A stretch of 64,000 nucleotides of DNA from Pseudaquidulcibacter saccharophilus (lineage in GTDB: Bacteria; Pseudomonadota; Alphaproteobacteria; Caulobacterales; Aquidulcibacteraceae), in NCBI RefSeq assembly GCF_019455445.1, contig NZ_JAHWUS010000002.1, forward strand, positions 434,001 to 498,000, written 5' to 3'. Position numbers and translations under genes: made by a program. Positions within the stretch are counted from its first letter, which is position 1, and each line of letters starts with the position of its first letter. A model generated the notes under the pieces. That model saw only the letters and a list, made by a program, of their open reading frames with translations. It had not been told where the DNA came from and made no database searches. This document shows, piece by piece, positions 37,364 to 62,540 of this stretch.

Positions 37364-37412
37364 TTGACTTTACAAAATATCAGAACATAGATAGAACGTT
37401 CTTTATATGTTC
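37364..37412 (+). promoter_or_regulatory. lexA promoter with back-to-back LexA operators
   Basis: A -35 TTGACT (37364-37369) and -10 ATAGAT (37387-37392) are 17 bp apart. The -10 hexamer fills the spacer of operator GAAC-ATAGATA-GAAC (37383-37397). It is immediately followed by operator GTTC-TTTATAT-GTTC (37398-37412), the form known for alphaproteobacterial LexA. Together they make a 30-bp inverted repeat. LexA bound here would block the promoter directly, giving autoregulation, and may also touch gltX1. Confidence 0.9.
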
Positions 37413-37471
37413 ATTTCGATTCATTAATTAGAATAAGTATATTTTAGTTAGAATCAATAATGGGGAATTTG

Positions 37472-38143
37472 ATGTTAACCTCTAAACAACAAGAATTATT
37501 ATTATTTATCAACGATCGTTTGAAAAAAGACGGGGTTTCGCCTTCTTTTGAAGAAATGAAAGAGGCGCTTAACTTGGCATCTAAATCTGGTATTCACCGT
37601 TTGATTTCTGCTCTTGAAGAACGTGGATTTTTGCATCGCCTCCCTCACCGTGCACGTGCGTTGGAAGTTGTTAAGCTTCCCAATAGCCCAACTACTGCAC
37701 CAACACAAAAACAAGGATTTAAACCTGTTATCGCGACAAATAATAAAGATATTATTGGCGCCCCTAAGTTGGGAATTCCAATACTTGGTAAAATAGCAGC
37801 CGGTGTACCTATTGCGGCCATTCAACATGAAATTGGAACTCTAGCTCCACAAGAAGAACTTAGTCCTGAAAACCACTTCGCATTAGAAGTCCGCGGCGAT
37901 TCAATGATTGAAGCAGGCATTCTTGAGGGTGATATTGTAATATTGAAACGTACAGATAACGCAGAAACTGGCGACATCGTTGTTGCGTTAATTGACGAAG
38001 AAGAAGCAACTCTTAAAAGATTGCGTAAGCGCGGTAAATCTATTGCCCTTGAGGCCGCAAACCCGCGTTATGAAACAAGAATTTTTGGTCCAGATCAAGT
38101 TCGTATTCAAGGTGTTTTGGTATCATTATACCGTAAATACTAG
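37472..38143 (+). CDS. lexA: LexA repressor
   Basis: SOS regulator that self-cleaves with RecA-ssDNA. The 223-residue protein has an N-terminal winged helix-turn-helix (about 1-66, with [18 protein letters not shown]). The cleavage site is A110-G111 in KIAAGVPIA, and the catalytic dyad is S144 in [10 protein letters not shown] and K182 in [13 protein letters not shown] 37472 is preferred to ATG 37460 because a GGGGA site sits six bases upstream of it. It is autoregulated through the operators at 37383-37412. It converges on comEC with 6 bp between. Confidence 0.97.
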
Positions 38144-58167: not shown

Positions 58168-61100
58168 TTATTGTAATTCACTAATTGCTTCTACGCCCTT
58201 CAGCGCCTTTAAAGCACGCCGTGACGGTATATCTATCGGATAACGGCCAGGAAGTTTAATTTCGACTTCACTTTCATTTTCAATACGCATCATTATTCTT
58301 AATTCACCAGCTTGTTTTGCTTCTACACCCCTTAATTGCTCAGTCAGGTTTTTGAATTCAAGAACATCAAAGCTAGTATCAACATATAAGATTACGCCCG
58401 AATAATTGTTTGATCGCATGTTTTCTATTGCGTCAAAACGTGAAGCAGAAATTTTTACTTCACCATCTAAATTTTTTGCCGATGCAATAAAACTAACGGT
58501 TTTACCAACTTCTATAAATTGCCGTGAATTTTCTAAATCCTCTGGTCTAACAAAAACCTCAAACTCTCCGGTTGGATCAGACAAAGTTACCCATGCGAAC
58601 TTCCCACCTTTACGTGCAGGTCGTTCCTTTGCAGCGCGAACCACGCCAGCCATAGGGAACAAGGCCTCAGAGGTTTGCATGTATTCTGCAATGTTTCCCC
58701 AGAAAACAGTTCTACGCGCTATTAAAATTTCAGATATATCGTCAAGAGGATGCCCCGATAAAAATAAGCCAAGCGCCGCAAACTCATGCGATAATTTTTC
58801 TTGCTCAGCCCACTGATTTACATTCGGCAAAGGAACGCGTGGTGGGGTAACAGAATCGCCAAACAAGCTAATTTGGTTCTTTTCAGCCTCATTATTACAT
58901 GATGCAGCATGCGACATAAGCATATCGGCGGAATCAACAATCAATGCACGATTAGGCTCAATATCATCAAAAGCACCAGATTTTGCTAAATTCTCAATAG
59001 CTCTCTTGTTTAAATTTTTTGGGCCAATGCGTTCCATAAATTCATGGATATTTGAAAACTTTCCATTGGCAATTACATCTTCTTCAACTGCCTGCATTGC
59101 TTTTGGTCCAATATTTTTAATTGCACCAAGAGCATATAATATTTCACCATTTTCAATTTTGAAATATGCGCCAGATTTATTAACATTCGGGGGATTAACT
59201 ATTATACCAAGCCGTTTTGCTTCTGTAACATAGGCGCCAAGTTTGGTTGTATCCTCTATATCCAAATTCATTGCAGCAACCAAAAACTCAACCGGATATT
59301 TTGCCTTTAACCATGCTGTTTGATAGGAAATAACCGCATATGCAGCCGCGTGGGATTTGTTAAAACCATAGCCCGCAAATTTATCAACAAGGTCAAAAAT
59401 TGATCCTGCAAGCTCTGGGTCGATACCCTTTTCCTTTGCACCTTCGGCAAAACGTTGACGCTGTTTTGCCATTTCATCTTTTTGTTTTTTACCCATAGCA
59501 CGGCGTAAAATGTCCGCCTCACCTAGTGAGTAGCCAGACAAGATTTGTGCAATTTGCATAACTTGTTCTTGATAGATGATAACCCCGTGGGTCTCTTTCA
59601 ACACTGGCTCAAGTGATGGGTGAAGATAGTCGGGTGGCTGTTTACCGGCCTTAACGTCACAATAAAGTGGAATATTTTCCATTGGACCAGGACGGTAGAG
59701 CGAAATCAACGCGATAATATCATCAAGACAGTTTGGAACCATTTTGCGCAACGTATCGCGCATACCCTGACCCTCGAGCTGGAAAACACCTAAAGTATTA
59801 CCTTGGCATAGAAAATCAAAAACTTCTTTATCATCATATCGTTGGGAGGCAAAGTTAACGTCAATTCCACGTGCGCGCAGTAAATCAATCGCATACTTAA
59901 TGACCGTGAGCGTCTTCAAACCCAAAAAGTCAAACTTAACCAATCCCGCAGATTCAGACCATTTCATATTATACTGAGTTGCCGGAATATCTGACTTTGG
60001 ATCTTTATAAAGCGGAACAAGTTCTTTTATTGGACGACCAGCTATAACTACGCCAGCAGCGTGAGTTGAACAGTTCCTATAAAGCCCCTCAAGCTCCATA
60101 GCTGTATCATAAATATTATGTACCGCCTCATCGTTATCATATGCTTGTTTCAGGCGGTCTTCCATCTCAAGCGCTTTACGAAGGCTAACTGGATTTGCAG
60201 GATTGTTAGGTATTAGTTTAGTTATCTCACTAACCCGCATGAAAGACATGTCTAAAACACGCCCCACGTCACGCACTGCTGCACGAGCCTGTAATGTACC
60301 AAATGTGATAATTTGTGACACGCGTTCAAAGCCATATTTTTCCTGAACGTATGAAATCACTTCTTCACGTCTATCTTGACAGAAATCGACGTCGAAATCG
60401 GGCATTGAAATACGCTCTGGATTCAAGAACCGTTCAAATAGCAAACCAAATTCAAGAGGATCCAAATCCGTAATCTGAAGACTATAAGCAACAATAGAAC
60501 CTGCACCAGAGCCACGACCTGGGCCAACTGGAATATCATGTGCCTTTGCCCATTTTATAAAATCAGATACGATTAAGAAGTAACCCGCAAAGCCCATGCG
60601 ATTGATAATTGAAATTTCAAATTCAAGGCGTTGTTGGTATTCCTCAACTGACTTAACTGGCGGCCTAGTTTTTAATCGATATTCAAGCCCCGCTTTGGCT
60701 TGTTCATATAGTTCATCACTTTCTGAGCGCCCTTCCCCATTGTCAAAACTTGGTAAGATTGGTTTGCGCTTTACAGCACGTACTGAACATCGTTTTGCAA
60801 TTTCAACACTATTTGCAAGGCATTCAGGCAAATCAGCAAAAAGCGCACACATTTCATCTTCAGTTTTGAAGAAATGTTCCTCAGTTAAGCGCGTTCGATC
60901 TGGGTTAGAAATTTTGTCGCCAGTACCAATACAAGTTAAAACTTCATGAGAATAATATTTATCACGTGATAAAAAACGAATATCATTTGTCCCGACTAAC
61001 GGAATATCGTTTTCGTATGCATAATCAATTAATTGTGCCTCTGTCGCTAATTCATCTTGCCGACCATGTCGTTGAATTTCTATGTATAAATTATCTTTGA

Positions 61101-61584
61101 ATTCAGTTTTTAATTTATCGAGCCATTCAATTGCATATTGTGGTTTATTATCAAAAAAAGATTTATTTATTGGAGATTGCCAACCACCGGTAAGGACAAT
61201 AATCCCATCTTTATTTTCAATTAGCGTCTGAATATCAACCGAGTTATCTTCATCAGAGCCATCCAAAAAATTGGTGCTTGATAAGAGCATAAGATTATCA
61301 AAACCAATTTGGTCTTTTGCAATTAATGCAATACTTCCACTTGTTGTGGTTTCATCTTCATGCTTCAAAAAACAAGGGAAGCATAAACCAACAATTGGTT
61401 GCACACCGCTACTTGCTAATGTCTCTGAATACTCAAGTGCGCCAAACAAATTTGGGTCAGATATACCAAGAGCGGGCAAATGCCTTTCTTTTGCAATTGC
61501 AGAGACTTTTTTAACCGTCATAGCACCATCAAGAAGCGAATATGCGGTTCTAAGCCTTAAATGGATAAATCTTGGTTCTGCCAT
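58168..61584 (-). CDS. dnaE: DNA polymerase III alpha subunit
   Basis: Replicative polymerase, 1138 residues. The N-terminal PHP domain starts FIHLRLRTAYSLLDGAMTVK. The palm has GPGRGSGAGSIVAYSL and the catalytic MPDFDVDFCQDRREEVISYV. LVKFDFLGLKTLTVI follows, and the fingers region has RPGPMENIPLY and YQEQVMQIAQILSGYSLGEA. The C-terminus has an OB fold and a beta-clamp-binding region. It has the DnaE1 length and is not the ImuB-linked DnaE2. It lies 81 bp downstream of the LexA-linked small ORF on the same strand, so some dnaE transcription could respond to SOS. Confidence 0.97.
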   Translation of the reverse strand: MAEPRFIHLRLRTAYSLLDGAMTVKKVSAIAKERHLPALGISDPNLFGALEYSETLASSGVQPIVGLCFPCFLKHEDETTTSGSIALIAKDQIGFDNLMLLSSTNFLDGSDEDNSVDIQTLIENKDGIIVLTGGWQSPINKSFFDNKPQYAIEWLDKLKTEFKDNLYIEIQRHGRQDELATEAQLIDYAYENDIPLVGTNDIRFLSRDKYYSHEVLTCIGTGDKISNPDRTRLTEEHFFKTEDEMCALFADLPECLANSVEIAKRCSVRAVKRKPILPSFDNGEGRSESDELYEQAKAGLEYRLKTRPPVKSVEEYQQRLEFEISIINRMGFAGYFLIVSDFIKWAKAHDIPVGPGRGSGAGSIVAYSLQITDLDPLEFGLLFERFLNPERISMPDFDVDFCQDRREEVISYVQEKYGFERVSQIITFGTLQARAAVRDVGRVLDMSFMRVSEITKLIPNNPANPVSLRKALEMEDRLKQAYDNDEAVHNIYDTAMELEGLYRNCSTHAAGVVIAGRPIKELVPLYKDPKSDIPATQYNMKWSESAGLVKFDFLGLKTLTVIKYAIDLLRARGIDVNFASQRYDDKEVFDFLCQGNTLGVFQLEGQGMRDTLRKMVPNCLDDIIALISLYRPGPMENIPLYCDVKAGKQPPDYLHPSLEPVLKETHGVIIYQEQVMQIAQILSGYSLGEADILRRAMGKKQKDEMAKQRQRFAEGAKEKGIDPELAGSIFDLVDKFAGYGFNKSHAAAYAVISYQTAWLKAKYPVEFLVAAMNLDIEDTTKLGAYVTEAKRLGIIVNPPNVNKSGAYFKIENGEILYALGAIKNIGPKAMQAVEEDVIANGKFSNIHEFMERIGPKNLNKRAIENLAKSGAFDDIEPNRALIVDSADMLMSHAASCNNEAEKNQISLFGDSVTPPRVPLPNVNQWAEQEKLSHEFAALGLFLSGHPLDDISEILIARRTVFWGNIAEYMQTSEALFPMAGVVRAAKERPARKGGKFAWVTLSDPTGEFEVFVRPEDLENSRQFIEVGKTVSFIASAKNLDGEVKISASRFDAIENMRSNNYSGVILYVDTSFDVLEFKNLTEQLRGVEAKQAGELRIMMRIENESEVEIKLPGRYPIDIPSRRALKALKGVEAISELQ

Positions 61585-61665: not shown

Positions 61666-61761
61666 TTAGCCAAACAAAGAACCGATACCCCACATCACAG
61701 CAGAACAAGCGATAATGGCAACCAAACCTAATAAATCTTCAATCGAAAACTCAACTTCCAT
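61666..61761 (-). CDS. 31-residue membrane micropeptide behind a LexA operator
   Basis: Read on the minus strand from ATG 61759-61761 to TAA 61666-61668. The product is 31 residues: acidic start MEVEFSIEDL, then a hydrophobic helix of about 20 residues (from LLGLVAII through CSAVMWGI), ending SLFG. A GAGAGGT ribosome-binding site lies five bases upstream of the ATG. A perfect LexA operator is 39 bp upstream. Codon choice resembles neighbours. I recognise no family. By analogy with Caulobacter SidA (SOS-induced, 29 residues, blocks division) it may act in the inner membrane; it has no basic residues, unlike the TisB toxin. The coding status is inferred. Confidence 0.7.
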   Translation of the reverse strand: MEVEFSIEDLLGLVAIIACSAVMWGIGSLFG

Positions 61762-61799
61762 GACAACCTCTCGAACAATTTGTTTCTATTTTGTTCCAT

Positions 61800-61834
61800 G
61801 TTCTGGTTGTGTTCCATTTTATAATTAATGTCAA
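61800..61834 (-). promoter_or_regulatory. LexA operator and TTGACA promoter element
   Basis: GTTCTGGTTGTGTTC (61800-61814) is an exact GTTC-N7-GTTC operator. On the minus strand a TTGACA hexamer (61834 to 61829) stands 14 bp upstream of the operator. A -10 region 17-18 bp further on would fall inside the operator, the same geometry as at lexA, although the -10 bases (ACAACC) are a poor match. The nearest downstream genes are the micropeptide and dnaE. Confidence 0.8.
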
Positions 61835-61856: not shown

Positions 61857-62540
61857 TTATTTTTCTTCTACTAAACGGCCGTTTTCAATGCGAACTATAC
61901 GGTCCATTTTGTGTGCAAGCTCAAGGTTATGTGTACCTATAAGAGCCGCAACATTTTCCTCTTTTGCAATTTTTGCCAAAAATTCAAGCACATAAATTGA
62001 AGTTTGAGGATCAAGATTTCCAGTTGGCTCATCAGCAAGCAATAATTTTGGATGATTTACCAAAGCACGACCAATGGCAACACGCTGCTGCTCGCCACCT
62101 GATAATTGCGCTGGCAGATGTTTCACACGCGCACCTAAACCCAACAATTCAAGCAATTCAACCGCTCTTTTATTAGCTATATCACGCGAATGACCAGCAA
62201 TTAACATTGGAAGTGCAATATTTTCGCATGCATCCAGTTCCGGCAGTAGGTTGTGAAACTGATAAACAAAGCCCATTTTATCACGACGAACTTTTGTTCT
62301 TTCATTATCATTAAGGGATGAAACATCTTGCCCTAATATTGATATTTTCCCACCTTGAGTTTCTTCCAATAAGCCAACAGAATGTAATAACGAAGATTTG
62401 CCAGAACCTGAAGGGCCAATTAGTCCGATTATTTCGCCTTTGCGGATTGTAAAATCAACGCCTCGCAAAACTTCTAATACGCCTGCTTGTGTGGAATAAG
62501 AACGAATTAAGCCTTCGGTTTTTAATATAACCTCACTCAT
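61857..62540 (-). CDS. lolD: Lipoprotein-releasing ABC transporter ATP-binding protein
   Basis: ATPase of the Lol system, which releases lipoproteins from the inner membrane. A 227-residue protein from ATG 62540. Walker A GPSGSGKS is at 42-49, the signature LSGGEQQRVAIGRAL, Walker B LLLADEPTGNLD and a characteristic FVYQFHNLLPELDACENI. The longer frame from 62576 is rejected because ATG 62540 overlaps lolC by 8 bp in the usual way. Confidence 0.95.
   Translation of the reverse strand: MSEVILKTEGLIRSYSTQAGVLEVLRGVDFTIRKGEIIGLIGPSGSGKSSLLHSVGLLEETQGGKISILGQDVSSLNDNERTKVRRDKMGFVYQFHNLLPELDACENIALPMLIAGHSRDIANKRAVELLELLGLGARVKHLPAQLSGGEQQRVAIGRALVNHPKLLLADEPTGNLDPQTSIYVLEFLAKIAKEENVAALIGTHNLELAHKMDRIVRIENGRLVEEK

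Follow-up and report, generated by a model that had tools for sequence, protein, structure and literature searches.

SidA of Caulobacter is a 29-residue inner-membrane protein that is induced via LexA cleavage and blocks division through FtsW and the FtsW/I/N complex (PMC4211646). DidA, also of Caulobacter, has 71 aa and is LexA-independent and DriD-dependent (PMC4211646). The experimental work on SidA comes from Caulobacter, and the curated family model is limited to near relatives. A search of open-access papers, which did not cover the original SidA paper, gave no report of SidA relatives outside Caulobacter; a prior mention is possible. The 64,000-nucleotide stretch of Pseudaquidulcibacter saccharophilus DNA analysed here (the window) carries, between lolD and dnaE, a 31-codon ORF without annotation that probably encodes an SOS division inhibitor of the SidA type, under a LexA-gated promoter.

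The peptide gene and its signals

58168..61584, minus strand: dnaE, DNA polymerase III alpha (PRK05673, above cut-off)
61666..61761, minus strand: predicted SidA-type micropeptide gene, 31 codons plus stop, ATG start (homologues, purifying selection)
61767..61771, minus strand: Shine-Dalgarno AGAGG, 5 nt 5' of the peptide ATG
61782..61796, minus strand: degenerate second operator, GAACAAAATAGAAAC, with a single half-site intact (sequence)
61800..61814, minus strand: predicted LexA operator, an exact GAAC-N7-GAAC, GTTCTGGTTGTGTTC (motif match)
61829..61834, minus strand: TTGACA, probable -35 hexamer
61857..62540, minus strand: lolD, the upstream neighbour (TIGR02211, E 2e-75, yet under the strict cut-off of that model)

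The ORF, its ribosome-binding site, the exact operator and the TTGACA all lie where the original prediction had put them. The peptide, MEVEFSIEDLLGLVAIIACSAVMWGIGSLFG, contains no K, R or H. AF2 predicts a single helix for it over residues 7-30 (pLDDT 88.6), and with 31 aa and a best 16-residue hydropathy of 2.3 it has the one-TM-helix, ~29-aa character of SidA. Where the window ORF has AGAGG, its relatives have GGAG/GAGG-like motifs. The operator at 61800-61814 scores 22.1 bits against the family matrix, which derives from 110 sites; many relatives have two operators in tandem upstream of the peptide, and many have TTGAC at a place similar to that of the window hexamer. A consensus scan of the window promoter gave no good -10 partner for TTGACA. 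The start of dnaE lies 81 nt past the peptide stop codon, and no terminator was found between the two genes in the window.

The ORF, operator and TTGACA alone are weak evidence, because a box followed by a hydrophobic ORF of 24-45 aa is seen in 24 of 100 simulated windows. Operator enrichment was likewise dropped as support: the genome has 55 sites versus 120 for the reversed control, which means no over-representation of the motif as such, and chance yields a box-ORF pair in 24% of simulated windows. What places the locus far beyond chance, as judged from sequence comparison, is its conservation in relatives.

Conservation and selection

Retention of frame and operator in relatives had been set as a test, and both are kept. 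The peptide ORF is found 5' of dnaE, at the same place and in the same frame, in all five members of the genus (4/4 apart from the window genome); the sister genus has a nearly invariant 28-residue version; and another three families of the order nearly always have a hydrophobic ORF of 29-32 residues, with GAAC-N7-GAAC boxes, 5' of dnaE. Searched against 150 genomes of the order, a profile made from 47 such peptides, members of that order among them, has matches in 92. Of these matches 90, Caulobacteraceae included, lie 21-374 nt 5' of dnaE and share its strand; the median gap is 88 nt. Operator and peptide are both absent from the genomes looked at in family f2 and genus g14. LolD is upstream at 45 of 71 peptide loci by a relaxed signature, the strict one having overlooked many; on this gene order the constant neighbour of the peptide gene is dnaE rather than lolD.

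The synonymous-substitution test that had been proposed over orthologues gave dN/dS values of 0.02-0.25: 0.022 in the sister genus (174 synonymous versus 17 non-synonymous pairwise differences), 0.06 for the pair nearest the window, 0.18 in one f4 genus and 0.25 among the Devosia relatives, the pairs being non-independent and the direction the same in all four sets. In shifted frames the sister genus has no such synonymous excess. These ratios indicate strong purifying selection on the peptide at the protein level, and an acidic residue at the helix start is conserved in most family members. By its conservation, the ORF at 61666-61761 is to be regarded as a real gene.

Kinship with SidA

At this same position upstream of dnaE, the peptides of family f3 are SidA by NCBIfam NF033228, with scores of 70.8, 44.3 and 47.6 bits where the cut-off is 35; on the strength of the same match, f3 is taken to be Caulobacteraceae. 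The Caulobacter vibrioides control genome also passes NF033228, and from the position in its relatives the SidA of that strain would itself lie 5' of dnaE. Neither NF033228 nor a profile made from SidA sequences alone finds the window peptide, and Pfam, PHROGs and plasmid searches with it gave no match. Direct profile comparison of SidA with f1, the window's family, gives a probability of 11%, a weak result that nevertheless exceeds nearly all controls. The kinship therefore rests on intermediates and on position. Profile-profile comparison connects SidA to f4 (E 6e-9) and f4 to f1 (E 4.5e-7), and none of 60 column-permuted controls reached either link. A SidA-plus-f4 profile finds the f1 members G017 (1.7e-6) and g2 (7.7e-5) and does not find the window peptide; with the window's genus left out, a family profile puts the window ORF at the top of 1738 frames (E 8.9e-6, the next at 0.67).

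Taken together with position, these comparisons identify the window peptide as a divergent positional orthologue of SidA and not as a new kind of effector. The original prediction had announced a new small SOS effector, a claim that falls since SidA itself occupies this place in Caulobacteraceae. It had also preferred a protein-binding checkpoint with a membrane helix and SOS control to a TisB-like pore, and with the novelty set aside all of this fits the evidence. Because SidA has the same position in Caulobacteraceae, the closeness to dnaE is ancestral synteny.

Distribution in the Alphaproteobacteria

Among 89 regions upstream of dnaE sampled across the class, 16 usable ones had a box within 700 nt, and in all 16, which represent twelve families, a membrane-helix ORF of 26-47 residues lies just downstream of the box; one further region (L144) ended early at a contig end. 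Class-wide regions without a box have only scattered hydrophobic ORFs, and the family pattern is absent from them. The pair of operator and peptide is present in Devosia too. The distant families have position, operator and size in common, and many of them also a basic-acidic pair ahead of the helix; their sequence kinship with SidA-type peptides can be traced only in part. Putative SidA-type peptides with SOS operators 5' of dnaE range, then, over several families of the Caulobacterales, Devosia and about twelve alphaproteobacterial families besides, and this spread suggests that the SidA checkpoint is older and wider in the Alphaproteobacteria than the curated family model indicates. Since the placement upstream of dnaE recurs, the SOS division checkpoint of the class can be searched for and tested at one predictable site.

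LexA operators and a possible control of dnaE

37383..37412, no strand assigned: two LexA operators, abutting and oppositely oriented, 5' of lexA (motif match)
37460..38143, plus strand: lexA, the presumed regulator (TIGR00498, E 2e-50, above cut-off)

The two abutting, opposed operators at 37383-37412 suggest tight autoregulation of lexA. The operator consensus over the 71 peptide loci is AGAACAAAAnnnGAACA, present before nearly all 71, and in the window genome the motif is also found 5' of ssb/uvrA, ruvC, a Pol IV-like gene, uvrD/pcrA and yifB. At G000:C5:134053-134078 (L192), two overlapping operator repeats lie 78 nt 5' of a YifB/ComM-like gene. At G000:C4:235530 (L174, about 1500), a GTTC-N7-GTTC box is separated by 7 nt from the possible TTG start codon of an ORF that resembles a LuxR-type regulator, named by reading only; this ORF is a possible further LexA target.

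In two genomes the peptide gene has been relocated. That of G015 (L004, about 1495-1578) adjoins a thiolase-like gene and has kept its own operators; that of G170 (L295:514-609) is preceded by two operators, of 27.6 and 24.7 bits, and the operator before the dnaE of G170 is absent. The operators thus travel with the relocated genes, an argument that they serve the peptide.

One question raised by the arrangement is whether SOS control extends to the replicative polymerase gene. In seven peptide-less genomes from five f1 genera (G022, G027, G016, G013, G024, G028 and G010) an operator scoring 17-26 bits lies 64-134 nt 5' of dnaE, and an eighth such genome, G029, has a weaker one of 15.7 bits. 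High-scoring LexA-like operators directly 5' of dnaE were noted in peptide-less genera at L022, L023, L024, L025, L026, L300 and L303. Given the operators of the peptide-less genomes, and in the window the small distance and the missing terminator, we predict that dnaE may be LexA-controlled, whether together with the peptide or as a remnant once the peptide has been lost. We put forward only tentatively the wider proposal that sidA-dnaE is an ancestral alphaproteobacterial SOS unit, in which LexA would govern a division brake and dnaE from one promoter, and from which some lineages would have lost the peptide and kept the control of dnaE. If true, a division checkpoint would be coupled to polymerase supply.

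Proposed mechanism and alternatives

The most likely mechanism of the window peptide, by analogy, is the same brake as that of SidA. LexA made from the window's lexA would bind the GAAC-N7-GAAC operator and shut the promoter; on DNA damage, activated RecA would lead to LexA cleavage, and the 31-residue peptide would be made and enter the inner membrane as a single helix. There, as with Caulobacter SidA, it may keep the late divisome (FtsW with FtsI/FtsN) inactive, so that division is delayed until repair is complete. The window genome encodes two FtsW/RodA-type proteins. Induction, membrane insertion, the FtsW/FtsI/FtsN target and the phenotype are all what we infer for the window peptide from its likeness to SidA.

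Three other explanations were weighed. That a chance short ORF merely adjoins a chance box might be argued from the simulated frequency of such pairs, and is refuted by the conservation of both frame and operator in relatives; its probability is next to nothing. TisB is a short hydrophobic peptide induced by SOS, and a depolarising membrane toxin of that kind would, like the window peptide, be SOS-controlled and have one hydrophobic helix, similar in length. The kinship with SidA speaks against it, as do the lack of any basic residue in the window peptide and the acidic residue at the helix start of most family members, a basic/acidic residue pattern unlike that of TisB, and we consider such a toxin very improbable.

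The peptide could also be a leader cistron, LexA mainly controlling dnaE and the ORF acting in cis through coupling or attenuation. Its location on the dnaE strand, the median gap of 88 nt, the missing terminator in the window and the operators retained before dnaE in the peptide-less genera would all suit such a role; the strong selection at the protein level and the two relocated copies that bear their own operators remote from dnaE would not, and SidA itself acts in trans (PMC4211646). A leader is accordingly rated unlikely, if less so than a toxin, and a SidA-type division inhibitor remains the preferred reading.

Comparison with known systems

TisB resembles the window peptide as a short SOS-type hydrophobic peptide, and differs as a pore-forming toxin with an antisense RNA. 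YneA, SosA and the other Gram-positive SOS division inhibitors are also small membrane SOS inhibitors; they belong to unrelated families with other LexA boxes and are analogues only. DidA of Caulobacter is, like the presumed product of the window gene, a small damage-linked membrane division inhibitor, and is set apart by its 71 aa and its LexA-independent, DriD-dependent control (PMC4211646). From SidA (Caulobacter crescentus, NF033228) the window peptide differs in a sequence too distant for the family model, in an acidic N-terminus without K/R and in its C-terminus; the two have in common a length of ~30 aa, one membrane helix, a GTTC-N7-GTTC-type operator, an acidic residue at the helix start and a position directly 5' of dnaE.
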